From Halomonadaceae bacterium T82-2 (GTDB lineage: Bacteria; Pseudomonadota; Gammaproteobacteria; Pseudomonadales; Halomonadaceae): a DNA stretch of 59,982 bases. The translations under genes and the position numbers were made by a program. Below, one piece after another: positions 1 through 59,618 of this stretch. Location: positions 1-59,982 of the forward strand of contig LSBP01000019.1 in assembly GCA_001577635.1 (NCBI GenBank), given 5' to 3'. Position 1 is the stretch's first letter, and each line of letters opens with the position of its first letter. Below the pieces are notes generated by a model that was not told the DNA's origin, did not search any database, and saw nothing but the letters and a program-made list of their open reading frames with translations.

Positions 1-49
1 TAGCGCCCATGGAAGGGTTCACAGCGCCCCCGCGACGCCTTGACACCGG
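1..49 (+). repeat. partial copy of a dispersed palindromic repeat (copy 1)
   Basis: The window opens inside a repeat whose core (TAGCGCCCATGG, then AAGGGTTCACAGCGCC) recurs nearly identically at 35144-35175 and in diverged form at 53767-53797. Only the right half is visible here, ending in a right arm of the CCCCCGCGACGCCTTGAC type. The left arm lies outside the window. It sits just upstream of a strong hairpin at 61-94, so it is probably in an intergenic spacer. Confidence 0.7.
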
Positions 50-34924: not shown

Positions 34925-35052
34925 CGGTCCTCTCCACGGCTGCACGATGTCATTTCAACATAGCGCCTCAGTCTGGGAGCGGACCGGAGAGGACGCAAAT
35001 ACCGCGCCCCTTGGCAGGGCAATCGCCGCTGGGTCTGGCAAGGGATGTCGGG

Positions 35053-35188
35053 GACAGGTCAAAGAGGGGGTCCGACGTCAGGGCCGAAAAGAGTTCCCTT
35101 CAATTTCGGCATTCCCGCCATCCATGGCGGTCAGATGGCGTCGGTAGCGCCCATGGAAGGGTTCACAGCGCCCCCTCGCAGACCTGTC
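35053..35188. repeat. complete copy of the dispersed palindromic repeat (copy 2)
   Basis: The element is bounded by imperfect inverted arms of 18 bases: GACAGGTC-AAA-GAGGGGG on the left and CCCCCTC-GCA-GACCTGTC on the right, 15 of 18 pairing. The interior ends with the core also seen at 1-30 and, diverged, in recB. The whole 320-base spacer between ilvD and the symporter gene (34925-35244) holds no gene. This repeat fills its centre. Confidence 0.75.
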
Positions 35189-35244
35189 GACGGATCAGCC
35201 CGAACGATAATGCTAACTTCGACCTCTTGCCCACCTCGGTCTGC

Positions 35245-36642
35245 TCAGCCCGCCTGCCAGGCGGAGTGCGGGCGCACCAGTGCCACCAGCAGCGCCACCG
35301 CACTGGAAATCGCCAGGGCGCCGGCAAACGGTGCGAGCGTGGTTTCGCCGCCCGGAAAGCTTGCCGCCAGCAGTGCATCGCCCAGACTGCCCCGGGCGAT
35401 CCAGTCCGGCAGGATGGCACCGACCAGACCGGCCACCGCGCCGGCAGCAGCGGCCGGCGCGCTCATCCGTGGCCACAGCCCCATCAGCACCGGCACCACC
35501 GCCGTGGCACACAGCAGATCGGCGATCAAAAACAGCCGCAGCACCGAATAGCCCTGCAGGGCCACCAGCACCGCCGGCACCATCAGCGCCAGGGTGATCC
35601 AGCGCGCCGCCGTCAGCGAGACGCCGTGGCGGCTCAGCGCCTCGCCCTCGCCGACCAGCAGCGAGGCGATACCGTTCTGCAGAGTGTCGACGCTGGAGGC
35701 CACCAGCGTCACCGCCAGTACCAGCACCAGCAGGGTCAACCAGGCCGGCGCTGCATCGAGCAGCGCGAAAAAGGGCATCGGCGGCTGGCCGAGATCAGCG
35801 CCGCTCATCGCCGCCAGGATACCCAGCCCGCCGACCACCGCCACGACCAGCACGGTGGTGACGCCGCCCAGCACCGCGCCACGTCCCAGCGCGGCGCCAT
35901 CACGGGCCGCCCAGACCCGCTGCCAGTAGCCCTGGTGGAAGAGATTGGCCGCCGTCACCGCGATGACCAGAGTCACGGCCACATTCAGCGCCTCGCCGGG
36001 CGGCACACTCGGCATGGCGGCATCGGCCGGCAACGCGGGCAGGTCACCCAGGACCGCGCCTGTCACCAGCACCAGCAACACGCCCAGCAGCAGGGCCTGC
36101 CAGCGGTCGGTGACCAGGCTGGCCCGCAGCCCGCCCCAGGCGGTGTAGGCCAGCGTGGTCAGCGCCACGGCCACGATCGCCACGCTGCCCGCCAGCGGCG
36201 AGAGCAGTGCGGTGATACCGCCGATGGCACTCAGCTCGGCGGCCAGAAAACAGGCCATGTACAGCACCGAGAGCAGGGCCACATAGCGGCGCATGCCGGT
36301 GCCGAAGCGCTCGGCGGCAAACTCGCCGATGCTGCGCCCCGCCGGCAGCCGACGACGAATCGCCGGCCCGCACAGCGCCAGCACGATGAACGGCAGCGCC
36401 GAGCCGATGGCATAGCCGGCCAGCGCCACCGGACCGACGAAGGCCCCGACTTCCGGCGGCGCGAAGAGAATCCAGGCGCCCATGCCGGACGCCAGGAAGG
36501 ATAGCCCCAGCGTGGTGCCGCGCTGCGAGTTGCGCGCCGTCACGTAATCATCGAGGGGCGAGTCGGCGCGTCCGGCGCGCAGGCCCAGAATGGCAAACAG
36601 CAACAGGGCCGCGCCCAGCACGGCCAGGGTGGCAAGATACAT
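35245..36642 (-). CDS. thiV: SSS-family sodium symporter behind a TPP riboswitch (ThiV-like)
   Basis: A 465-residue membrane protein with about 12-13 helices of the sodium:solute symporter family (motifs such as LSFLASGMGAWILFAPPE and a YTAWGGLRASLVTD loop). The leader carries a TPP riboswitch, so the product is expected to import thiamine or a thiamine precursor. Comparative genomics has predicted an SSS-type thiamine-pathway transporter named ThiV; this is a good match by family and regulation, though the substrate is not proven. The ATG at 36642 has GGAGGA eight bases upstream, the last bases of the riboswitch, so TPP probably hides the ribosome site. Confidence 0.8.
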   Translation of the reverse strand: MYLATLAVLGAALLLFAILGLRAGRADSPLDDYVTARNSQRGTTLGLSFLASGMGAWILFAPPEVGAFVGPVALAGYAIGSALPFIVLALCGPAIRRRLPAGRSIGEFAAERFGTGMRRYVALLSVLYMACFLAAELSAIGGITALLSPLAGSVAIVAVALTTLAYTAWGGLRASLVTDRWQALLLGVLLVLVTGAVLGDLPALPADAAMPSVPPGEALNVAVTLVIAVTAANLFHQGYWQRVWAARDGAALGRGAVLGGVTTVLVVAVVGGLGILAAMSGADLGQPPMPFFALLDAAPAWLTLLVLVLAVTLVASSVDTLQNGIASLLVGEGEALSRHGVSLTAARWITLALMVPAVLVALQGYSVLRLFLIADLLCATAVVPVLMGLWPRMSAPAAAAGAVAGLVGAILPDWIARGSLGDALLAASFPGGETTLAPFAGALAISSAVALLVALVRPHSAWQAG

Positions 36643-36651
36643 GTCGCACTT

Positions 36652-36740
36652 CCTCCGCCGGTATTGACCGGATCAGGTTCCAGGGTCTGCGCCGCGGCCG
36701 GCACACTCTCAGCCCCGATCGAGCGGGGCTCCCCTGGCGA
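36652..36740 (-). promoter_or_regulatory. TPP (THI-box) riboswitch
   Basis: Read on the minus strand the leader contains the hallmark parts in order: CCAGGGGAGCC, a short hairpin with CUCGAU loop, GGGGCUGAGAG, a variable stem, GACCCUGGAACCUGAUC, then CCGGUCAAUACCGG and CGGAGGAAG. CUGAGA and GAACCUGAUC are the nearly invariant TPP-binding segments. The last part overlaps the ribosome site of the symporter gene, consistent with translational control. Confidence 0.93.
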
Positions 36741-36899
36741 CGTTGAATGTCGGGATGATTAAAGTTTTGCGGATATCGGTCGATAGGAGCGAGTATCCGT
36801 CCTGCATTCGACCCCTGCCGACGGCAACGCGCCGCCTCGGGGTCGTGAAGCGATCTCACTCTACCAGAACACCAGACAACGATCAGATCCGAGATCCCC

Positions 36900-39308: not shown

Positions 39309-39433
39309 GTACAAAACAGTCGAGCGAAGGCAAGACCAGGCGAAATTGACCGAAAACGCGCAGTTTACAAGGTGGTAAATGAGCATTTTGAGGTCAATTT
39401 CAACGCCGTATTGCCGAGCACAGACATTTTGTA
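39309..39433 (+). repeat. left ~125-base repeat flanking selO
   Basis: This element begins GTACAAAACAGTCGAGCGAAGG and ends ACAGACATTTTGTA, so its own ends form a short inverted repeat (TACAAAA/TTTTGTA). The interior contains TGAGCATTTTGAG and AACGCCGTATTGCCGAGCA. An inverted relative lies at 40948-41080. It ends nine bases from the selO stop codon. Confidence 0.75.
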
Positions 39434-39442
39434 GGCGCCCTC

Positions 39443-40918
39443 TCAGGTGCCGCAGAAGGTACGGAACACCCGCTCGCTCGGCTGGGCCGGCAGCGTGTAC
39501 GCTTCGCGACCGGGCTGCGCCTCGAAGGGCCGGGCCAGGACCTCGCGCAGGGTCTCGAAGGGGGCGAAATCGCCTTCGTAGGCGGCGGCCAGCGCCTCCT
39601 CGACCCGATGATTGCGGGGGATGTAGAACGGATTGACCGCGCGCATGCGCGAGGCGACGGCGGCCCCGTCGGCGTCCTCGCTTGCCAGCCGGGCCTGCCA
39701 GCGCGCCAGCCAGGCCTCGAGGGGCTCGCGACGTTCGGTCAGTTCGAACAAGGCCGGGCGAGCCTCGGCGGATTCGGCGACGTCGGCCAGCTGGCGGAAG
39801 CTCAGGGTGAAGTCGGCACGCCCGGCATGCAGCGCCTCGAGCAGCGACTCGGCAAGCTCGAAATCCCCCTCCTCCTCGCGCGCCAGGCCCAGCTTGGCAC
39901 GCATCACTGCCAGCCATTCGGCGTCGTACTGGCCGGGGTAGGTCTCGAGAACCCGGGTCGCGCGCTCGATGCCGCGCTGGCGATCGTCGTCGATCAATGG
40001 CAGCAGGGTCTCGGCGAAACGCGCCAGATTCCACTGCACGACCCCCGGCTGGTTGCCGTAGGCATAGCGCCCGCGCTCGTCGATGGAGCTGAACACGGTG
40101 CGCGGATCGTAGGCCTCCATGAAGGCGCAGGGTCCGTAGTCGATGGTCTCGCCGGCGACCGAGGTATTGTCGGTGTTCATCACGCCATGAATGAAGCCGA
40201 CGCCCATCCAGCGCGCCACCAGGGCCGCCTGGCGCTGCAGGACGGCCTCGAAGAGGGCCAGATAGCGCGTCTCGGGCGGTTCTTCGTCCAGATGGGGATA
40301 GTGTCTGGCGATCGCCTCGTCGGCCAGGGTGCGCAGGGCATCGATGTCGCCCCGGGCGGCGAAGTACTGGAAGGTGCCTACCCGCAGGTGACTGTCGGCC
40401 ACGCGGGTCAGCACGCCGCCGGGTTCGGGGACACGGCGCAGGACCCGTTCGCCGCTGGCCACCGCGGCCAGCGACCGGGTGGTGGGAACACCCAGCGCGT
40501 GCATCGCCTCGCTGACCAGATACTCGCGCAGCACCGGACCCAGCGGCGCCCGACCGTCGCCACCGCGGGAGAACGGCGTGCGCCCGGCGCCCTTGAGCTG
40601 CACGTCGCGCAGCCGGCCGTGACGGTCGGTCACCTCGCCAAGCAACACCGCACGGCCATCGCCCAGACTGGGCACGAAGTTGCCGAACTGGTGGCCGGCG
40701 TAGGCCTGGGCCAGCGGCTCGGCACCGGGCGGCACGACATTGCCGGAGAACCACTCGGTCGCCTGGCGCTCGTCGAAGGCCGCGAGATCGAAACCCAGTT
40801 CCTCGGCCAGCGGCCGGTTGAAGGCGATCAGGTGCGGTGCCTCGACCGGCACGGGGTCGAAGCGCGCGAAGAAATGCGCCGGCAGGCGCGCATAACGCAG
40901 CGTGAAGGGGGAAAACAT
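39443..40918 (-). CDS. selO: protein adenylyltransferase SelO (YdiU)
   Basis: A 491-residue SelO/YdiU pseudokinase, near the normal size. The N-terminal part contains [11 protein letters not shown] and the [24 protein letters not shown] nucleotide region (shown here in two motifs, AGHQFGNF and LGDGRA). [19 protein letters not shown] and [11 protein letters not shown] follow, the latter with the catalytic metal-binding Asn/Asp. The C-terminus ends TFCGT; this cysteine aligns with the selenocysteine of animal SelO. The known reaction transfers AMP to protein Ser/Thr/Tyr, with a role in oxidative stress. ATG 40918 is chosen; GGGAG lies upstream. Both flanks are inverted repeats. Confidence 0.93.
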
Positions 40919-40947
40919 GGGGACTCCCGTCGATGACTGGCTAGGCT

Positions 40948-41080
40948 TTGCACGAAAACTGCCTGCACTCGGCAATACGGCGTTAAAAATTGGCTCAAAA
41001 TGCTCATTTACACCCCGTAAACTCCGCTTTTTCGCCGATTTTTGCCTTGTCTTGCCTTCGCTCGCCGACTTTTCGTACAA
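40948..41080 (-). repeat. right ~133-base inverted repeat flanking selO
   Basis: On the minus strand this begins TTGTACGAAAAGTCGGCGAG and ends CAGTTTTCGTGCAA, with 11-base inverted ends (TTGCACGAAAA against TTTTCGTACAA). Interior parts match the left copy: GCGAAGGCAAGAC, GAGTTTAC/GTAAATGAGCATTTTGAG and AACGCCGTATTGCCGAG. It lies 29 bases upstream of the selO start. Confidence 0.75.
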
Positions 41081-49720: not shown

Positions 49721-49807
49721 TCGACGTGGTTGTCCTTTCCCCTTTGCTCCCGCCGCTCGCTGGGGCACCATACCCCCTGCTCATTTATCCAGTCACGCAG
49801 GATCGCC

Positions 49808-52800
49808 ATGCCCGCCCACTCGCCCTCCTCACTGCAACCCGGCTTCATGGTGATTCACGGCAACCGCCTGGAGGCGCTGCGCGACCTGGCGGTGGAGTGG
49901 CTGCGCAACCACCCGCTCTCGCCGCTCGAGGACGAGGTGATCCTGGTGCAGAGCAACGGCATCAGCCAGTGGCTGAAGCTGGCGCTGGCCGCCGATCCGC
50001 CCGCGGGCGCCGGCATCGCCGCGGCGATGGACGTCACCCTGCCGGCGCGCTACCTGTGGCAGGCCTATCGGGCCGTGCTGGGCTCGGACGCCGTGCCGCC
50101 GGCCTCGCCGCTGGACAAGCCGCGGCTGATCTGGCGGCTGATGCGCCTGCTGCCCGAATTGCTCGATGACGAGACCTTCGCGCCGCTGGCCCGCTTCCTG
50201 GCCGACGACGAGGACTGCCGCAAGCGCCACCAGCTCGCCGAGCGTCTCGCCGACCTGTTCGACCAGTACCAGGTCTATCGCGCCGACTGGCTGTCCGCCT
50301 GGGCCGAGGGCCGCGACGTGTTGATCGATGCCCGCGGCCAGGCCCGGCCGCTTTCCGAGGACCAGCGCTGGCAGCCGGCACTGTGGCGGTGGCTGCGCGA
50401 CGATATCGGCGAGCACGGCCTGGCCACCAGCCGCGCCTGGGTGCACACCCGCTTCCTCGCGGCCTGCCGCGAGCTGACGCCCGAAACGAGACCGGCCAGC
50501 CTGCCGCGCCGGGTGGTGGTGTTCGGCATCTCCTCGCTGCCGCGCCAGACGCTGGAGGCCCTGGCGGCGGTGTCGAAGGTCACCCAGGTGCTGCTCTGCG
50601 TGCACAATCCCTGCCGCCACTTCTGGGCCGACATCATCGAGCACAAGGACCTGCTGCGGGCCGCCCGCCGGCGCCAGCGCCACCGCCCCGGCATGCCGCT
50701 GGAGCTCGACGACACGAAGCTGCATCTGCACGCCCAGCCGCTGCTGGCCGCCTGGGGCAAGCAGGGCCGCGACTACCTGCTCCTGCTCGACGAGTTCGAC
50801 GACCAGGACGCCTACCGGGCGCTGTTCGACGCCGAGGCGCTGCGCATCGACCTGTTCGACTCGCCCGCCGACGGCGAGGCCCCGGGGCTGCTGCAGCAAT
50901 TGCAGGACGACATCCTCGAGCTGCGTCCGCCCCAGGAGACCCGCGAGACCTGGCCGGCGGTGGACCCGGCCCAGGACCGCAGCCTGCGCTTCCACGTCGC
51001 CCACAGCGCGCTGCGCGAGGTGGAGATCCTCCACGACCAGCTGCTGGCCGCCTTCGACGCCGACCCCACGCTGCGCCCGCGGGACGTGCTGGTGATGGTG
51101 CCCGACATCGACACCTACGCCGCCGCCGTCCAGGCGGTGTTCGGCCGCCTGCCGCCGGACGACCCGCGCCACATTCCCTTCACGCTCTCCGACCAGACCA
51201 GCCGCCACCGCCAGCCGCTGCTGGTGGCGCTCGAGGCGCTGCTGCACCTGCCGGAATCGCGCCTCACGGTCAGCGACCTGCTCGACCTGCTGGAAGTGCC
51301 CGCCCTGCGCGGGCGCTTCGGGCTGGACGCCGACACCCTGCCGGTGCTGCGGCGCTGGATCGAGGGCGCCGGCATCCGCTGGGGGCTCGACGCCGAGCAG
51401 CGCGCCCGCCTGGACCTGCCCGGCGGGCTCACCGCCAACACCTGGGCCTTCGGCCTGCGCCGGCTGCTGCTGGGCTACGCCGTCGGTGACACGGCCGACG
51501 GCCCCTGGCACGACATCGAGCCCTTTGGTGACATCGGCGGCCTGGAGGCGGCGCTGGCCGGCCCGCTGATGGACCTGCTCGACGCCCTCGAGGCCCAGTG
51601 GCGCGCGCTCAGCGAGCCCGCCGACGTACCGACCTGGTGCCGCCGCCTGCGCGAGCTGCTGGGCGCCTGCTTCGCCGCCGAGGACGAGGCCGACCTCGCC
51701 ACCCTCAACCGCCTGGGCGAACTGCTGGAGGACTGGCAGGAGACCGCCGAGGACGCCGGCCTGACCGAGGCGCTGCCGCTCTCGGTGGTGCGCGAGCACT
51801 GGCTCGGCCAGCTCGACGAGGCCAATCTCTCCCAGCGCTTCCTGGCCGGCGCGGTGAACGTCGCCACCCTGATGCCGATGCGCGCCATCCCGTTCCGCCA
51901 CGTCTGCCTGCTGGGCATGAACGACGGCGACTACCCGCGGGTCCAGCGTCCGCTGGACATCGACCTGATGGGCCAGGACTACCGCCCCGGCGATCGCTCG
52001 CGCCGCGAGGACGACCGCTACCTGTTCCTCGAGGCGCTGCTCTCGGCCCGCGACAGCCTGATGGTGAGCTGGGTCGGCCGCAGCATCCACGACAACGCGC
52101 CGCGCCCGCCCTCGGTGCTGCTCGGCCAGTTGCGTGACCATCTCGCCGCCGGCTGGCGGCTGGCCGACGCGGCGGAGGATGAGGACGCCGGGCAGGCCCT
52201 GGTCGACGCCCTGACCACCGAGCACCCGCTGCAGCCGTTCAGCAGAAGCTACTTCTCGGATAACGCCCGGCTGTTCACCTACGCCCATGAATGGCGGGCG
52301 GTGCATGCCGTCGAGAACGCGCCACGCGGCGTCGCGGACGGCGAGCTATCGCCGATCACGCTGGAAACGGCACTGCCGCTGTCACGCCTGTCCGGCTTCC
52401 TCAAGGACCCGGTGAAGGCCTTCTTCACCACCCGGCTCGGCGTCCATCTCGAGCGCGAGGCGCTGGAGAGCCCCGACCACGAGCCCTTCGCCCTGGACGG
52501 CCTGGACCACTGGCAGCTCCAGCAGGCGCTGATCGAGGCCGGGCGTCGCGCCGTGGACGCCGCCGAACCGCCGACGCCAGCCATCCACGACACCCTGGAG
52601 CGCTTGGAGCGCGAGGGGCGCCTGGCCATGGGCGGCTTCGCCGAGCTGATGCGCGAGCAGCTGGTCGAGCCGCTGGACAAGGTACTCGGCGACTACGCCG
52701 ACCAGCTCGAGGCCTGGCCCCACGCCCGGGAGACGCCGGCCGCCGTGTCGCTGACGCTCGCCACGAATGACGAGCCGATTCACATCGAGGACTGGCTGGA

Positions 52801-53398
52801 CGGCCTGCGCGAGAACGCCGCCGGCGAGCGCTGCCGGCTGGTGCTGATGACCAGCAGCCTGGTCAACAAGGGCAAATACCATTGGAAGCACTGGCTGGCC
52901 CCCTGGGTCGCCCATCTGGCCGGCCAGCTCGCCCTCGGCCCCATGACCACGGTGCTGCTCTCCCGCGCCGGCGGCGGCACCCTGGCGCCGCTGGACGCCG
53001 AGACCGCACGCACGCATCTGGAAGCCATCGCCCGAGCCTGGCGGGACGGCATGACCGCGCCGCTGCCGCTGGCCCGCGACACCGCCTTCGCCTGGCACGA
53101 GAAGGGTGGCGACCCCAGCGCCCTGGCCCGCGTCTTCGGAAACGCAGAGCAGGCCGAGGAGGCAGACCTCAAGGCCTGGAAGGCCGCCGTTCAGGTGTTC
53201 GAGGGCAGCGACTACACGCCCGGCGAGCGCGACCGCGATCCGTACCTCGCCCGCCAGTGGCGAGACCTCGAAGGCCTGGTGCGGCACGAGGCCGCTGGCC
53301 GGCGCTTCACCGAGCTGACCCCGGCACTCTACGCGCCGCTGCACGATGCGGTGAAGGCCAAGAAGAACGGGGGCAAAAGCCAGGGAGGCAAGGCATGA
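49808..53398 (+). CDS. recC: exodeoxyribonuclease V gamma subunit
   Basis: A 1196-residue RecC protein, slightly longer than the Escherichia coli one (about 1122). It starts GFMVIHGNRLEALRDLAVEW and shows QSNGISQWLKL, FGISSLPRQTLEALAAVS and LMPMRAIPFRHVCLLGMNDGDYPR, typical RecC landmarks. RecC lacks ATPase motifs and recognises Chi within the RecBCD complex, which repairs double-strand breaks and degrades foreign linear DNA. ATG 49808 follows an AGGA site. The stop overlaps recB's start by four bases. Confidence 0.92.
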   Translation: MPAHSPSSLQPGFMVIHGNRLEALRDLAVEWLRNHPLSPLEDEVILVQSNGISQWLKLALAADPPAGAGIAAAMDVTLPARYLWQAYRAVLGSDAVPPASPLDKPRLIWRLMRLLPELLDDETFAPLARFLADDEDCRKRHQLAERLADLFDQYQVYRADWLSAWAEGRDVLIDARGQARPLSEDQRWQPALWRWLRDDIGEHGLATSRAWVHTRFLAACRELTPETRPASLPRRVVVFGISSLPRQTLEALAAVSKVTQVLLCVHNPCRHFWADIIEHKDLLRAARRRQRHRPGMPLELDDTKLHLHAQPLLAAWGKQGRDYLLLLDEFDDQDAYRALFDAEALRIDLFDSPADGEAPGLLQQLQDDILELRPPQETRETWPAVDPAQDRSLRFHVAHSALREVEILHDQLLAAFDADPTLRPRDVLVMVPDIDTYAAAVQAVFGRLPPDDPRHIPFTLSDQTSRHRQPLLVALEALLHLPESRLTVSDLLDLLEVPALRGRFGLDADTLPVLRRWIEGAGIRWGLDAEQRARLDLPGGLTANTWAFGLRRLLLGYAVGDTADGPWHDIEPFGDIGGLEAALAGPLMDLLDALEAQWRALSEPADVPTWCRRLRELLGACFAAEDEADLATLNRLGELLEDWQETAEDAGLTEALPLSVVREHWLGQLDEANLSQRFLAGAVNVATLMPMRAIPFRHVCLLGMNDGDYPRVQRPLDIDLMGQDYRPGDRSRREDDRYLFLEALLSARDSLMVSWVGRSIHDNAPRPPSVLLGQLRDHLAAGWRLADAAEDEDAGQALVDALTTEHPLQPFSRSYFSDNARLFTYAHEWRAVHAVENAPRGVADGELSPITLETALPLSRLSGFLKDPVKAFFTTRLGVHLEREALESPDHEPFALDGLDHWQLQQALIEAGRRAVDAAEPPTPAIHDTLERLEREGRLAMGGFAELMREQLVEPLDKVLGDYADQLEAWPHARETPAAVSLTLATNDEPIHIEDWLDGLRENAAGERCRLVLMTSSLVNKGKYHWKHWLAPWVAHLAGQLALGPMTTVLLSRAGGGTLAPLDAETARTHLEAIARAWRDGMTAPLPLARDTAFAWHEKGGDPSALARVFGNAEQAEEADLKAWKAAVQVFEGSDYTPGERDRDPYLARQWRDLEGLVRHEAAGRRFTELTPALYAPLHDAVKAKKNGGKSQGGKA

Positions 53399-56300
53399 CG
53401 ATGACGGAAGACAATCAGATCACCGCGACGCCGCGCCTCGACCCGGTCGCCCTGCCGCTCACCGGCAGCCGGCTGATCGAGGCCAGCGCCGGTACCGGCA
53501 AGACCTTCACCATCGCCCTGCTCTACCTGCGGCTGGTGCTCGGCCCGCGCGGCTCACACGAAGGGCATGACGACACGGCCAGCTTCCCGCGGCCACTGAC
53601 GCCGCCGGAGATCCTTGTCGTCACCTTCACCAACGCCGCCACCCAGGAGCTGCGCGACCGCATCCGCGCCCGGCTGGTGGAGGCCGCCGACGCCTTTCAG
53701 CCCATCGACGAAGACGGGGCGCCGGGGGCAGGTCAAAGCGGAGGTCATTCGACAGGGATGTCGAATGTAGCGCCCAAGGACGGTTCCACAGCGCCTCCGC
53801 GATGGTCCGACACTTCGGGATCTGCCGCCGGATCAGACCCGTCACAGCACCAAACTGGGGATCTCTTCGCCGAACCGGCGGTGGATAATCCGACACCTGA
53901 CGATGAGACGCCCAGCGGCGATCCGCCGGGCGGCGACCCGCTGCTCGCCCTGCGCGACAGCTACCCGCGCGAGAGCTGGCCGAGTTGCGCCCGCCGCCTC
54001 CGCCTGGCCGCCGAGTGGATGGACGAGGCCGCGGTCTCCACCATCCACTCCTGGTGCCACCGCATGCTGCGCGAACACGCCTTCGACAGCGGCAGCCTGT
54101 TCGCCCTGGAGATGTCGCTGGACCAGTCCGAGATGGACCTGGAGATCGCCCGAGACTACTGGCGCAGCTTCTACTACGACCTCGCCCCCGAGGCGCTGGA
54201 AATCGTCGCCCGCTACTGGACCACGCCGGACGCCCTCAACGACACCGCCGCCCGGCTGCGCACCCACGCCGCCGCCCTGCCCGTGGCGCCGCCTCCCTTC
54301 GAGGCGCTCTCGAACTACCGCGAGCAGCGCGCCGTGGCGCTGGCCGAGCTCAAGGCGCCCTGGCCGGCCTGGCTCGACGAGCTGGACGACCTGCTCGAGC
54401 AGGCGAACGCGCGCAAGGCCTTCGACGCCCGCAAGCTCAATGCCAGGAGCCGCGCCAACTGGCTCGACGCCCTGCGCGATTGGGCCAACGATCCAGAGCT
54501 AGCCAAGCCGGCGCTGACCGACGCCGCCTGGAAGCGCCTGACGCCGGACGGCATCGCCGAGATCTGGAAGGAAGACCCGGTACCCAACCTGCCGGCGCTG
54601 GAGGCCCTGGCCGAGCTGCCGGGGAAGCTCGCCGAGTTGCCCGACCCGTTCGCCGACCTGCTCGCCCACGCCGTGCACTGGATGGCCGCCCGCCGCGAGA
54701 CCGTGCAGCGCCGCCGCGCCGAGCTCGGCCCCGACGACCTGCTGCACCGGCTGGACGCCGCCTTCGCGGGCGAGGCCGGCGAGACCCTGGCCGCGCGCAT
54801 CCGCGAGCAGTTCCCGGTGGCGCTGGTCGACGAGTTCCAGGACACCGACCCGGTGCAGTACCGGCTGTTCGACCGCGTCTACGAGCTGGAGAAGAACCGG
54901 GATGACAGCGCAGTAATGCTGATCGGCGACCCCAAGCAGGCGATCTACGCCTTCCGCGGCGCCGATATCCACACCTACCTCCAGGCACGGCGCGACACCG
55001 CCGGCCGCCACGTCACGCTGGGCACCAACTTCCGCTCCGCCACGCCCATGGTCGAGGCCGTGAACCGGGTGTTCGCCCACGCCGAGCAGAGCGAGTCCGG
55101 CGCCTTCCTGTTCCGTCGCGGGGACGACAATCCGGTCCCCTTCGCCCCAGTCGACGCCAACGGCCGCAAGGACGCCCTCGTGCGCCGCGGCGCCGCCCAA
55201 CCGGCGCTGACGCTCTGGCACCTGGCCACCGACGAGACGCTCGGCAAGGGCGCCTACCTGGCCGAGCTGGCCGCACGCTGCGCCACCGAGATGGCGAGCC
55301 TCCTGCGCGAGGGCCAGGCCGGGCAGACCGGTTTCCAGGAAGACGGAGAATTGCGCCCGCTGGCGCCGTCGGACCTCGCCGTGCTGGTCAACAACGCCGG
55401 CGAGGCCCGCGCCATCCGCAACGCCCTGCTGGCCCGCGGCATCCGCAGCGTCTACCTCTCCGACAAGGAGGGCGTGTTCGAGACCGAGGCCGCCGCCGAG
55501 CTGGAGGTGTGGCTGGCGGCCTGCGCCGCGCCGGACGACGAGCGCTGCCTGCGCGCCGCCCTGGCCACGCCGAGCCTGGGCCTGAGCCTCGCCGAGCTCG
55601 ACGCCCTGAACGGCGGCCCGCAGCAGGACGAGCTGGCCTGGGAGGCGCGGGTGATGCAGTTCCGCGACTACCACCGCCAGTGGCAGCGCCGCGGCGTGCT
55701 GCCCATGCTGCACCGGCTGCTGGCCGACTTCGCGGTGCCCGGCCGGCTGCTGGCCGTGCCCGAGGGCGAGCGACGGCTGACGGACCTGCTGCACCTCGGC
55801 GAGCTGCTGCAGGAAGCCAGCGCCGAGATCGACGGCGAGCACGCCCTGCTGCGCTTCCTGGCCGAATCCCGCGCCCATCCCCAGGCCCAGTCCGACACCC
55901 ACCGCCTGCGCCTGGAGAGCGACGCCGACCTGGTGCAGGTGGTCACCATCCACAAGTCCAAGGGCCTGGAATATCCGCTGGTGTTCCTGCCCTTCATCGC
56001 CGCCTTCCGCCCGGTGAAGCAGGGCGACCTGCCGCTGCGCTGGCACGACGATGACGGCCAGCTGCGCCTGACGCTCTCCGCCGACGAGGCCACGCTGGCC
56101 CGCGCCGACCACGAGCGCCTGGGGGAGGACCTGCGCAAGCTCTACGTCGCCCTGACCCGCGCCCGCCACGCCACCTGGCTCGGCCTGGCGCCGCTGGACG
56201 CCCTGGAGCGCAGCGCCGTCGGCCATCTGCTCTCCGGTGGCGAGGCGCTCTCGCCCGACACCCTGCGCCCGGCGCTCGAGGCGCTGGCTGACAAGCGCGT

Positions 56301-57348
56301 TGATCGCGTGACGGTGCAGGACGCCCCCGAGGCCGATGCCACGCCGGTCCAGCTCGCCAGCGACGACACACCGCTGGGTGAGGCCCGCGCGCCCACCCGG
56401 GCGATCCGCGAGCACTGGTGGATCGCCAGCTACTCGGCGCTGCGCACCGGCGCCACGCCGGATGACGTCGGCACGGACGACACCGCCGCCGAGGCCGAAC
56501 CGTCGCCCGAACCCGCTACCGCCATTGAAGCCGCCGCCATGGAGGTGCTCCACGAGCCCTTCGATGCCGCCGCCGCCACGGTGAGCGAGGGCTCGCTTCA
56601 CCGCTTCCCCCGCGGGCCCTCGGCGGGGACGTTTTTGCACGGCCTGCTGGAATGGGCCGGCGAGGAAGGCTTCGCCAAGGTGGCCGAGGACGCCGAGCTG
56701 CGCGCCGACACCCTGGCCCGGCGCGCCAACCGCCGCGGCTGGGAGGGCCAGATACCCGCGCTCGAACAATGGCTGCCGGATCTCCTGACCACGCCGCTGC
56801 CGATGCCGGGTGATGGCGAGGCCGCACCGCTGCGCCTCGACGCCCTGGACGGCGCCACCGACTATCGGGTCGAGCTGGAATTCTGGTTCGCCGCGCATAA
56901 GGTGAACACCCGCCGGCTGGACGCCCTCGTGAGCGCTCACACACTCGGCGGACGGCCGCGGCCGGCGCTCGAGCCCGACACCCTCAACGGCATGCTCAAG
57001 GGCTTCATCGATCTGGTGGTGGAGCACGAGGGGCGCTTCCACGTGCTCGACTGGAAGTCCAACCACCTGGGCGCGAGTGATGCCGCCTATACCGAGGCGG
57101 CAATGGCGGAGGCCGTGCTCGACAAGCGTTACGACGTGCAGTACTGCCTCTATCTGCTGGCCCTGCACCGGCTGCTCGAGGCGCGGCTGCCGGACTACGA
57201 CATCGAGCGCCACCTGGGCGGGGCGCTCTACGTCTTCCTGCGCGGCACCCGCGCGCCCTCCCGCGGCGTGCACGCCGAACGCCCGCCGAGCGAGCTGATC
57301 CTCGCGCTCGATGCCCTGTTCCGCGCCGCCGAGGAGGCCGCCGCATGA
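53395..57348 (+). CDS. recB: exodeoxyribonuclease V beta subunit with in-frame repeat insertion
   Basis: A 1317-residue RecB protein with an SF1 helicase and a nuclease domain. Walker A EASAGTGKTFT is at residues 29-39. The motif II region VDEFQDTDPVQYRLF lies near residue 480. The nuclease motif GFIDLVV...LDWKSN is at about 1203-1223. Between TFTNAATQELRDRI and the conserved WMDEAAVSTIHSW region, residues about 111-150 are encoded by a palindromic repeat element in frame, and more low-complexity Asp/Pro/Gly sequence follows. This loop is therefore longer than in relatives but the motifs around it are intact, so the enzyme is probably active. Overlaps recC and recD by four bases each. Confidence 0.92.
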   Translation: MTMTEDNQITATPRLDPVALPLTGSRLIEASAGTGKTFTIALLYLRLVLGPRGSHEGHDDTASFPRPLTPPEILVVTFTNAATQELRDRIRARLVEAADAFQPIDEDGAPGAGQSGGHSTGMSNVAPKDGSTAPPRWSDTSGSAAGSDPSQHQTGDLFAEPAVDNPTPDDETPSGDPPGGDPLLALRDSYPRESWPSCARRLRLAAEWMDEAAVSTIHSWCHRMLREHAFDSGSLFALEMSLDQSEMDLEIARDYWRSFYYDLAPEALEIVARYWTTPDALNDTAARLRTHAAALPVAPPPFEALSNYREQRAVALAELKAPWPAWLDELDDLLEQANARKAFDARKLNARSRANWLDALRDWANDPELAKPALTDAAWKRLTPDGIAEIWKEDPVPNLPALEALAELPGKLAELPDPFADLLAHAVHWMAARRETVQRRRAELGPDDLLHRLDAAFAGEAGETLAARIREQFPVALVDEFQDTDPVQYRLFDRVYELEKNRDDSAVMLIGDPKQAIYAFRGADIHTYLQARRDTAGRHVTLGTNFRSATPMVEAVNRVFAHAEQSESGAFLFRRGDDNPVPFAPVDANGRKDALVRRGAAQPALTLWHLATDETLGKGAYLAELAARCATEMASLLREGQAGQTGFQEDGELRPLAPSDLAVLVNNAGEARAIRNALLARGIRSVYLSDKEGVFETEAAAELEVWLAACAAPDDERCLRAALATPSLGLSLAELDALNGGPQQDELAWEARVMQFRDYHRQWQRRGVLPMLHRLLADFAVPGRLLAVPEGERRLTDLLHLGELLQEASAEIDGEHALLRFLAESRAHPQAQSDTHRLRLESDADLVQVVTIHKSKGLEYPLVFLPFIAAFRPVKQGDLPLRWHDDDGQLRLTLSADEATLARADHERLGEDLRKLYVALTRARHATWLGLAPLDALERSAVGHLLSGGEALSPDTLRPALEALADKRVDRVTVQDAPEADATPVQLASDDTPLGEARAPTRAIREHWWIASYSALRTGATPDDVGTDDTAAEAEPSPEPATAIEAAAMEVLHEPFDAAAATVSEGSLHRFPRGPSAGTFLHGLLEWAGEEGFAKVAEDAELRADTLARRANRRGWEGQIPALEQWLPDLLTTPLPMPGDGEAAPLRLDALDGATDYRVELEFWFAAHKVNTRRLDALVSAHTLGGRPRPALEPDTLNGMLKGFIDLVVEHEGRFHVLDWKSNHLGASDAAYTEAAMAEAVLDKRYDVQYCLYLLALHRLLEARLPDYDIERHLGGALYVFLRGTRAPSRGVHAERPPSELILALDALFRAAEEAAA
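53727..53842 (+). repeat. dispersed palindromic repeat inside recB (copy 3)
   Basis: The core GTAGCGCCCAAGGACGG and TTCCACAGCGCC, the left GGCAGGTCAAAGCGGAGG and the right CTGCCGCCGGATCAG line up with the copy at 35053-35200. The inner stem is GCGGAGG (53738-53744) with CCTCCGC (53794-53800), perfectly paired although both sides differ from copy 2 (GAGGGGG with CCCCCTC). An inner hairpin TTCGACA-GGGA-TGTCGAA lies at 53748-53765. The reading frame passes through without a stop. Confidence 0.75.
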
Positions 57349-59618
57349 CCCCGGATACCCCGAACCACGCCGCCACGCCCGAACACGCGCTGGCTCAAGC
57401 GCCCGACCATGCGCTGGCCGATCACGCGGCTCTGTTCGCCCTGCTCGACCGCTGGGTGGATCGTGGCTGGCTGCGCTCGCTGGATCGCGCCTTCGCCGCC
57501 TTCCTGCATCGCGAGGCGCGTAAGGGGCACACGGACAGTGAGGCTTCGCCCCTGCTGCTGCTCGCGGCGGCGCTGGCCAGCCACCAGCTCGGCCGTGGCC
57601 ACGTGTGCCTGGATCTGGCCCAGACGCTGGCAACCCCGGACCTGGCGCTCTCGCTGCCGCCGGAGGGCGACAGCCTGGACGACCCGCCGCCGATGCCGAG
57701 CCGGGTGATGGCCACGCTCGAACTGGATACCTGGCGCGCCGCGCTCGATCAGCCCGAGCTGGTGGCCGACGGCCCCGGCAGCACCCCGCTGGTGCTCGCC
57801 GGCACCGCCGCACGCCCTAGGCTCTACCTGCGCCGCTACTGGCAGCACGAGCAGGATATCCACAGCCGGATCGTCGCCCGGCTCGGTGGCACGGACAGCG
57901 ACGACGCCCCGGACGCGGCCCGCCTGCGCCCGATCCTCGACGCCCTCTTTCACAAGCCACAGCAAGCCGACGCCATCGACTGGCAGAAGGCCGCCTGCGC
58001 CCTGGCCGGCCGCTCGCGCTTCGCGGTGATCACCGGCGGCCCCGGCACCGGCAAGACCACCACCGTGGTGCGCCTGCTCGCCCTGCTCCAGGCGCTGGCT
58101 CTGGGTGAAGAAAAGGATGATGGCGGACAAGCCCTGCGCATCCGCCTGGCCGCGCCCACCGGCAAGGCCGCCGCGCGGCTCAACGAATCCATCGCCAAGC
58201 AGGTCAGTGAGCTGCCCTTCAAGACACTGACCGACCTGTGGCAAGCCGCTGACGACGCCCCGGAACAAGGCGAAGACGCCTCGTGGGAGCGCAGCTTGCT
58301 GCGCGAAAATCCCGCCGAGGCCCTCAAGCGGGCGGTGCCCACGGAGGTCAGCACCCTGCACCGCCTGCTCGGCTCGCGGCCGGACACCCGCCGCTTCCGC
58401 CACGACCGCCACAATCCGCTGCCGCTGGACGTGCTGGTGGTGGACGAGGCCTCGATGGTGGACGTGGGCATGATGGCCGCGATGCTCGAGGCGCTGCCGC
58501 CCCGGGCGCGGCTGGTGCTGCTCGGCGACAAGGACCAGCTCGCCTCGGTGGAGGCCGGCTCCGTGCTCGGCGACCTGTGCGCCCGGGCCGAGGGCGGCCA
58601 CTACACCCCGGCCACCGCCGAGTGGCTGGCTGAGGCCACCGGCCAGACACCGCCCGCGGACAAACTGGACGCCGACGGCCAGCCCCTCGACCAGGCCATC
58701 GCCATGCTGCGCGTCAGCCACCGCTTCACCGCCGACAGCGGCATCGGCCAGCTCGCCGCGGCAGTCAACCTGGAAGATCAGCCCGCCGCCAAGCGCAGTG
58801 CGATCACGAAAGCGCTGAACGAGGACTTCGCGGACCTCTCGCACCAGAAACTGCGCGCCGACGACGAACGCGGCCTGGCCCGCCTGGCCGTGACCGGCTG
58901 CCCCGAGCGCTTTCCCGATAACGGCCAGGGCCGCCTGCATCGCGGCGAAACGCTGCCACCCCCGGTGGGCTATCGGCACTTCCTGAGCGTGGTAGCAAAG
59001 GAGCGCCCGAAAGACGACGCTCCTCAGGAACAGTTCGATGACTGGGCCCGCGCGGTGCTGGAAGCCCACGGCGACTTTCAGCTGCTGTGCGCGCTGCGCC
59101 GCGGCCCCTGGGGCGTGGAAGGCCTGAACGAGCGGGTGCGCCGGGCCCTGGAGCGGGAGAAGCTGATCGACAGCCAGGACGGCCGACAGCGCTGGTACCC
59201 CGGCCGCCCGGTGCTGGTGACGAAGAACGACTACGGCCTGGGGCTGATGAACGGCGATATCGGTATCACTCTGGATATGCCGCGTCCGGGCGCCGCGACT
59301 GGAGACACCAACCGTCGCCTGCTGCGGGTGGCCTTCCCCGCCACTGATGGCACCGATCGCATCAAGTGGGTGCTGCCCTCGCGCCTGCAAGCGGTGGAGA
59401 CGGTGTTCGCGATGACGGTGCACAAGTCCCAGGGCTCGGAGTTCACCCACGCCGCCCTGGTGCTGCCCGACGCGCCGAACCCCATCCTCACCCGGGAGCT
59501 GGTCTACACCGGCATCACCCGCGCCCGCCACTGGCTGACGCTGGTGGAAACCGGCCGCGGCCAGCTGATGGACGCGGCGCAGAGACGAGTGATGCGGGTG
59601 AGTGGATTGGGGTGTTGA
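57345..59618 (+). CDS. recD: exodeoxyribonuclease V alpha subunit
   Basis: A 757-residue SF1 helicase subunit. Walker A GGPGTGKTTT is near residues 231-240. VLVVDEASMVDVGMM is motif II, and the C-terminal TVHKSQGSEFTHAALVLP motif completes the helicase. RecD is the fast 5'-3' motor of RecBCD and controls the switch at Chi. E. coli RecD is about 608 residues; this one has additional material, mainly the Asp/Glu-rich linkers at about 288-330. The start overlaps recB (ATGA). The gene is followed by a hairpin at 59649-59668 and IS remnants. Confidence 0.92.
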   Translation: MTPDTPNHAATPEHALAQAPDHALADHAALFALLDRWVDRGWLRSLDRAFAAFLHREARKGHTDSEASPLLLLAAALASHQLGRGHVCLDLAQTLATPDLALSLPPEGDSLDDPPPMPSRVMATLELDTWRAALDQPELVADGPGSTPLVLAGTAARPRLYLRRYWQHEQDIHSRIVARLGGTDSDDAPDAARLRPILDALFHKPQQADAIDWQKAACALAGRSRFAVITGGPGTGKTTTVVRLLALLQALALGEEKDDGGQALRIRLAAPTGKAAARLNESIAKQVSELPFKTLTDLWQAADDAPEQGEDASWERSLLRENPAEALKRAVPTEVSTLHRLLGSRPDTRRFRHDRHNPLPLDVLVVDEASMVDVGMMAAMLEALPPRARLVLLGDKDQLASVEAGSVLGDLCARAEGGHYTPATAEWLAEATGQTPPADKLDADGQPLDQAIAMLRVSHRFTADSGIGQLAAAVNLEDQPAAKRSAITKALNEDFADLSHQKLRADDERGLARLAVTGCPERFPDNGQGRLHRGETLPPPVGYRHFLSVVAKERPKDDAPQEQFDDWARAVLEAHGDFQLLCALRRGPWGVEGLNERVRRALEREKLIDSQDGRQRWYPGRPVLVTKNDYGLGLMNGDIGITLDMPRPGAATGDTNRRLLRVAFPATDGTDRIKWVLPSRLQAVETVFAMTVHKSQGSEFTHAALVLPDAPNPILTRELVYTGITRARHWLTLVETGRGQLMDAAQRRVMRVSGLGC

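Follow-up and report, generated by a model that had tools for sequence, protein, structure and literature searches.

A MITE-like element of Halomonas and related genera whose covarying two-hairpin RNA may dock CsrA, with a copy read in frame in recB

The DNA considered here, referred to as the window, is a stretch of 59,982 nt from Halomonadaceae bacterium T82-2 (contig LSBP01000019.1, positions 1 to 59,982), in which a palindromic element lies in frame within the recB gene and recurs between genes. We give about an even chance to the reading that this is a non-autonomous element of Halomonas and related genera, similar to a miniature inverted-repeat transposable element (MITE), which carries a TwoAYGGAY-like, CsrA-docking RNA. 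The body of the element is a closing stem with two ANGGAN-hexaloop hairpins. One CsrA/RsmA dimer can bind two ANGGAN hairpins simultaneously, and because of this any transcript that includes the element would bind one CsrA dimer; each insertion would thus equip the mRNA or untranslated region (UTR) that it hits with a place where CsrA docks or is titrated. In recB, the same sequence is also translated, giving about 40 residues of a variable linker that separates helicase motifs, and the recB mRNA would gain a CsrA site, weaker for the window's copy, where one free GGA loop is predicted. The original prediction on this DNA had described a palindromic repeat inside recB that keeps its stem by compensatory changes; it did not include the pair of ANGGAN loops, the kinship with TwoAYGGAY or the ends of the transposon.

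The recB copy occupies 53710..53842 of the plus strand (RecB residues about 106-150) and is matched at 53710-53834 by R1, a covariance model built from copies of this genome (92.9 bits, E 1.5e-18). The segment first proposed, 53727-53842, which translates as RecB residues 111-150, is real, but the unit is longer than proposed, the match beginning at 53710. In the predicted fold, an outer stem P1 (5' arm GGCAGGTC at 53727..53734, 3' arm GATCTGCC at 53819..53826) encloses a closing stem P2 (GCGGAGG at 53738..53744, CCTCCGC at 53794..53800), which covaries across copies, and P2 in turn carries two hairpins. Hairpin P3 (53746..53767) has the loop AGGGAT, an ANGGAN loop with its GGA predicted unpaired, and hairpin P4 (53773..53783, context GTAGCGCCCANGGANGGNTNCACAGCGCC) has the ANGGAN letters AAGGAC, with a GGA that is here predicted paired (unpaired probability 0.13). 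An extra small hairpin, CCGACACTTCGG at 53807..53818, is common to copy L018 and the recB copies L234-L236. The folding energy of the recB copy is -48.7 kcal/mol (z = -2.2, 4/200 shuffles being equally good). Generally, the unit consists of an outer stem, the closing stem P2, hairpin P3 and hairpin P4, the last of these in the context GTAGCGCCCANGGANGGGTTCACAGCGCC. The inner arms GCGGAGG/CCTCCGC of recB and GAGGGGG/CCCCCTC of the intergenic copy (35064-35070 and 35171-35177) were located as claimed.

The element belongs to a family that is dispersed over the genome of the window, designated G000 and the source of what we call own copies, and over genomes of relatives, which bear the other G numbers. 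The core common to the three copies of the window (1-49, intergenic and recB), already pointed out in the original prediction, occurs in none of 100 shuffles. A genome-wide search, which had been proposed as a check, returned 48 matches to the core pattern at no more than 3 mismatches and none to a reversed-pattern control; two of the 48 (start of contig C23, end of contig C29) appear by eye to be one truncated locus on two contigs. R1 was built from 23 own copies (alignment A1, which took 23 of the 28 full copies; copies with the 51-nt domain described below were left out, also from the stem comparison) and gave 51 matches in G000 at E<=1, of which 49 are strong (136.3-73.9 bits) and two weaker, at 42 and 31.6 bits. 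R1 matches occur in 31 of 58 genomes, namely in 14/14 genomes of the genus (1 to 50 copies), 12/23 others in the family and 5/21 others in the order; named recB loci put the element-bearing group in Halomonas, Modicisalibacter, Onishia and kin. According to our own gene finder, a single one of the 49 own copies lies inside a gene. In the literature, searched with mainly open-access coverage, no title or abstract start among the matches listed dealt with this Halomonas repeat or with MITE-borne CsrA sites. The 51-nt domain (53 nt in one copy) is found within the P3 GGA loop in 9/49 own copies (window 35083-35133, L005, L014, L022, L028, L097, L100, L101 and L105), and has a hairpin with the loop ATCCAT, the reverse complement of ATGGAT.

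The stems are maintained by paired changes, also among the copies embedded in recB, as the claim of compensatory changes had anticipated. Across the 23 copies, 92.8% of cells are paired overall (100% in P3, 97.5% in P2) and double-sided changes are present in 17/31 pairs (81 cells); the ten recB-embedded copies are 93.3% paired, with double changes in 13/33 pairs. Covariation reaches 0.347 in the 23 copies, versus 0.137 when shuffled and 0.061-0.088 with slid partners, and 0.367 in the ten recB copies, versus 0.170 shuffled and 0.042-0.137 slid; kin sequences may beat shuffles without any structure, so the slid control counts too, a control that favours a structure derived from the same sequences. 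In recB copies, several of the joint stem changes swap amino acids in each of the two arms. Most joint changes there are common to species groups and hence represent few events. The pN/pS ratio (nonsynonymous to synonymous differences) is 0.735 in the recB element versus 0.518 downstream, a comparison that was not used because the downstream part is unaligned.

The loops of both hairpins are also conserved. In counts that are not selection-free, as the R1 model itself favours GGA loops, P4 bears ANGGAN in 49/49 own copies and P3 in 37/40 of those with a short loop; 26 matches in other genomes of the family have ANGGAN in P4 in 25 cases and in P3 in 23, and 24 recB copies of named genomes have it in 24 and 20, respectively. 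Six genomes outside the genus, five of them outside the family, contributed 43 matches, some of which are repeat hits to one place covered by overlapping loci, with ANGGAN in P4 in 41 and in P3 in 36, and a P3 containing GGA in 42. Column identity in P4 is 1.0 at the A, G, G and A positions, whereas the two N positions reach 0.34 and 0.31. Folding predictions leave the P4 GGA unpaired in 39/49 own copies and the matching P3 loop positions in 38/40. In several copies of distant relatives P4 reads TACANGGATGTA, near the consensus obtained for CsrA by systematic evolution of ligands by exponential enrichment (SELEX). RsmE complexes bind the ANGGAN hexaloop, and the CsrA SELEX consensus is RUACARGGAUGU, according to the sections of PMC7652899 drawn on here. 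Judging from these sequence features, the RNA of the element is probably CsrA-binding. The CsrA/RsmA-titrating small RNAs (CsrB, RsmX/Y/Z) likewise have paired ANGGAN-loop hairpins; unlike them, the Halomonas element is dispersed and mobile, with two sites per copy. A CsrA gene was found in 58/58 genomes, so that its presence or absence is uninformative as a test. As a separate observation, G051 has nine CsrA-family matches plus 23 R1 matches at E<=0.01.

The closest known RNA family is TwoAYGGAY (RF01731, clan CL00106). In 2010 this motif was put forward as a candidate RNA, listed, according to excerpts of PMC2864571, for gamma-Proteobacteria, Clostridiales and the human gut; excerpts of PMC4333381 propose it as a CsrA-sequestering RNA on the basis of computational loop matches. 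Both RNAs have an outer stem, poorly conserved in TwoAYGGAY and conserved to a varying degree between genomes in the element, an inner closing stem and two hairpins joined by AG, with NGGAN loops, and the two NGGAN-loop hairpins on a single closing stem by which TwoAYGGAY is recognised are found in the element. The Halomonas element differs in its second hairpin, which is short and has an asymmetric, conserved TTYACAGCG strand. It further has tens of dispersed copies, transposon ends and one genic copy, none of which is mentioned for TwoAYGGAY in the sections of PMC2864571 and PMC4333381 drawn on here. RF01731 matches the R1 locus L057 (G041) at 43.5 bits, versus a gathering cut-off of 43, and the R1 locus L063 (G046) at 31.6 bits, below the cut-off, in both cases at the same place as R1. 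Further RF01731 matches were obtained in G056 (45.4 bits), G053 (42.9), G010 (42.4) and G029 (twelve at 36.5-42.4). On the other hand, R1 finds nothing in nine fetched RF01731 loci, L212-L220, where RF01731 scores 36-45 bits; RF01731 has no match at E<=1 in six own loci, and passes its cut-off in 0/14 genomes of the window's genus, the best being the 42.4 bits of G010. Because RF01731 stays below its cut-off in the window's genus and R1 misses L212-L220, the element and TwoAYGGAY would be sister groups at best, and the element appears to be a relative with the same architecture and not a member.

The element is a mobile, MITE-like transposable element, and not a repetitive extragenic palindrome (REP) driven by a REP-associated tyrosine transposase (RAYT). 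At locus L311 of the close relative G002, a 163-bp unit lies between two GCGCTT words, while the orthologous G000 site is empty and has one; the duplication is 6 bp and the flanks of the empty site are 93% and 98% identical between the two genomes. A second subtype has the same body and different ends, which are 17-bp terminal inverted repeats of AGGGCAATCGCAGTTGG type. Both of these ends are recognisable at no more than 5 mismatches in 12 of 91 copies (49 from G000, 6 of 20 fetched from G002, 17/19 from G011 and 19/22 from G025; 14 G002 copies with flanks matching a G000 element locus were left out). Units with both ends measure 162-166 bp, or 216-217 bp in two that carry the 51-nt domain. 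In seven of these 12 copies, the ends are immediately flanked by direct repeats of 7-11 bp. The mean longest shared flank word is 7.25 versus 3.90 when shuffled (standard deviation 0.28, maximum 4.67, 300 shuffles); the end motif was taken by eye from these copies, and the direct-repeat test was not fitted. Two further candidate empty sites were discarded: at L308, a 3' half-element is still present in G000, which indicates a deletion, and in a second species of G039's genus the flanks are too divergent. Like bacterial MITEs, the element is short, has no open frame of its own, has terminal inverted repeats and target duplications and is mostly intergenic; unlike them, its body is a covarying two-hairpin RNA.

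The orientation of the copies was scored on genes called by our own crude codon-score script. In G000, the GGA strand of copies between co-directional genes is sense in 27 cases and antisense in 7 (p = 8e-4); a first, cruder version of the gene finder had given 23:4, had placed L088 in a frame and had missed recB. The sense:antisense ratio is 13:5 in G025, 10:4 in G011 and 9:5 in G055, and no sense bias is seen in the close relative G002 (7:6), in G041 (11:12) or in G039 (8:9), with 20/43 copies fetched for G002, 19/39 for G011 and 22/60 for G025. One other fetched locus, L347, did not enter the analysis. Pooling G000, G025, G055, G041 and G039 gives 68:38 (p = 0.0046). The sense bias is clear in this genome and is not general.

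In the more distant relatives the stems themselves vary from copy to copy. Own-arm pairing in G039, G041 and G055 has a median local score of 21, 23 and 18, versus 6 with the arms of other copies; when copies are compared with one another, identity is 33%, 33% and 44% for the 20-nt arms and 81%, 68% and 71% for the tips. In G000 and G025 the own-arm score is 10, versus 7 and 8 with other arms, and arm identity from copy to copy is 58% and 64%. Many BLAST matches among G039 copies at 95-100% identity end at 58-60 bp, that is, at the tip, and longer ones are at 70-89%; at one orthologous site of G055 and G067, the tip and inner stem are common, whereas each arm of the outer part of the stem differs. 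Stems that are unique to a copy and yet pair within it imply a mechanism by which the two arms are renewed jointly. Two side observations can be added for these genomes. The 17 close pairs of copies in G041, G039 and G055 (L163, L165, L167, L170-L173, L177, L182, L183, L188, L189, L191, L192, L194, L201 and L206) without exception have a head-to-head arrangement, minus followed by plus, with 5' ends facing and 30-109 bp apart, and in G039 copies the outer flanks beyond the copy-unique stems are by eye partly conserved (TGGCAC...GAGG, GCCGG). We give clearly less than an even chance to the wider reading that the family spreads a CsrA-binding RNA, each insertion giving a new transcript a paired ANGGAN docking site, and so would rewire or titrate the Csr system across Halomonadaceae, and would do so in relatives of the same order on copy-unique long stems.

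The recB gene follows recC (49730-53398) and precedes recD (57345-59618) in the window, encodes UvrD-helicase and nuclease domains and is open from 53395 to 57348 (plus strand) through the segment, which is in frame without a stop, as had been noted. The insert lies between VTFTNAAT and DEAAVSTIHSWC, which we take to be helicase motifs Ia and Ic. A survey of recB loci of relatives, which answers a check that had been proposed, disposed of the possibility that the segment is ordinary RecB sequence, since its presence among orthologues is patchy: R1 finds the element in 10/30 recB loci of relatives and in 22/42 named recB loci, two of which, H. halmophila and H. almeriensis, have two in-frame copies each. 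On a recB tree of 63 loci, made with a quick method, with the linker excluded and with 17/59 inner branches poorly supported, presence of the element changes at least 14 times, or 16 counting orientation and number; nine of 72 recB loci (L121, L131-L136, L260, L262) are out of the tree, as their anchoring motifs were not found. Losses exist among these changes, as L258, L250 and L252 retain element scars left by in-frame deletion, and for this reason the recB of H. halodenitrificans (L258) was rejected as an empty site. Nine of the ten recB copies in the set from relatives are sense, all in one frame, which avoids the core TAG; the TAG frame has a stop in 48/48 own copies with a located core. 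The antisense copies are also open and encode an unrelated peptide. The idea that the linker tolerates extra residues is supported, and because in-frame deletion scars occur in relatives, the likeliest view of the RecB insert is that of a tolerated translated linker, rather than a needed one. Nothing was found that connects the place of insertion to the action of RecBCD on foreign DNA, to which the original prediction had drawn attention. An unrelated palindrome of GGGGTCAGACCCC or GGGGACAGACCCC type is in frame in the same RecB linker in L248, L249, L253, L255 and L256, and palindromes resembling these types are seen at an intergenic site in G055's genus. Sections of PMC3733652 report REPs of the GTAG superfamily in recB of two Xanthomonas species at about one site and note repair genes as frequent hosts; the likeness is that of a palindromic repeat in recB coding sequence, and element type, size and mobilisation differ.

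Several of these observations, the preference of R1 for GGA loops and the crude gene calls behind the orientation counts among them, weigh against a CsrA-docking role. The P4 GGA is predicted paired in 10/49 own copies, including the recB copy of the window, where the outer P4 pair is lost and the GGA would pair with a nearby UCC; in the other nine recB-embedded copies it is free in the predicted folds. The P3 motif is absent where the 51-nt domain replaces the loop (9/49), is lost in 3/40 and is also missing from some recB copies. Sense bias is lacking in G002, G041 and G039, and in the four antisense recB loci (L120, L237, L241 and L245, 4/63) the GGA strand is absent from the recB mRNA. As for the transposon, 79/91 copies, the recB copy of the window among them, do not have two recognisable ends, these being decayed or different. 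Moreover, very stable stems may disfavour CsrA, according to the part of PMC7652899 drawn on here.

The unbiased orientation in those three genomes, the paired P4 GGA in 10/49 own copies, the recB copies in both orientations and the in-frame deletion losses among recB relatives also speak for a purely selfish MITE, as do the transposon ends and target duplications. Its hairpins would serve transposition or escape without any RNA function, and its GGA loops would be recognised by a transposase or host factor. We regard this explanation as unlikely, while considering it a genuine contender. It has to account for stems that covary, for a tip that is intact even in the copies whose terminal repeats have decayed or differ (79/91), and for a recB copy of the window that lacks recognisable terminal repeats and yet belongs to the fold-keeping set. 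The sense bias in this genome and the identity of the fixed loop letters with those contacted by CsrA-family proteins also argue against it. Rather improbable, in turn, is a hairpin for RNA stability or processing in the 3' UTR, acting as a barrier to RNase E or RNase III and not as a CsrA site: the folds are stable and the sense copies between co-directional genes of G000 lie at a median of 36 nt past the upstream stop codon, but the fixed A-GGA loop letters beside varying N positions would be left unexplained.

Two other explanations carry very little weight. The element could be a REP, or a bacterial interspersed mosaic element (BIME), of the GTAG superfamily that owes its mobility to a RAYT, since GTAG stands before the P4 hairpin in nearly all own copies, the genome has one Y1_Tnp gene and, in the sections of PMC3733652 drawn on here, Xanthomonas recB hosts GTAG REPs at about one site. 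This origin is very improbable and is disfavoured by size, ends and tag: the unit is 162-166 bp (216-217 bp with the extra domain) plus target duplications, as opposed to 20-40 bp, the tag is internal, with CGAG, AGAG, CAAG, TGAG or TTAG outside the family, and the RAYT locus L031 (contig C49 of G000) is by eye flanked by a different palindrome, of GCGACTGAAGTCGC type. Least credible of all is a Rickettsia-like insert retained because of the peptide that it contributes to RecB, for although 9/10 recB copies in the set from relatives are sense in one frame and H. halmophila and H. almeriensis have two in-frame copies, 1/49 own copies is genic, antisense copies give an unrelated peptide, paired arms change amino acids jointly while pairing is kept, and relatives bear deletion scars. 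The resemblance to Rickettsia palindromic elements (RPEs) raised in the original prediction accordingly holds in part: both insert in frame into coding sequence, but this element is rarely genic, is conserved as an RNA fold and occurs in both orientations, whereas nearly half of R. conorii RPEs sit in genes in the account given by excerpts of PMC10969869.

The window contains two further copies. The intergenic one (35016..35208, plus strand) is of the long form, with the 51-nt domain inside P3; R1 matches it at 35036-35208 (104.7 bits) and its fold has z = -5.3 (0/200 shuffles as good). It starts with a terminal-repeat match at 35016-35032 with 2 mismatches, a kind of match that 33/100 window shuffles gave at least once at no more than 3 mismatches. 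Neither a sigma-70-like promoter nor an intrinsic terminator was found around it. The third copy (1..49, plus strand), recognised by the shared core, is the 3' part only, cut by the contig start, and on its own folds no better than shuffles (z = +1.1). The assembly breaks at the repeat here, as the contig starts within the copy (window 1-28) and the end of contig C29 (L013) has the same sequence. A scan of the window with Rfam at the gathering cut-off gave a thiamine pyrophosphate (TPP) riboswitch at 36632-36745 on the minus strand (61.7 bits) as the only known family. The stretch 39321-41064 resembles an insertion sequence: 1.5 kb is flanked by inverted repeats that are about 110 bp long and 81-84% complementary, and a 442-aa plus-strand frame inside them has no Pfam match.

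If the CsrA-docking reading is true, the cargo of this transposable element would be a regulatory RNA site and not a gene. The many aligned mobile copies in culturable Halomonas make the proposal that TwoAYGGAY-like RNAs engage CsrA directly testable. The recB copies illustrate how paired changes can maintain an RNA fold within a coding sequence. Finally, the recB linker is a natural insertion hot spot, which has received this element in either orientation, two copies of it, or an unrelated palindrome, and it would be useful for studying how proteins tolerate mobile elements.

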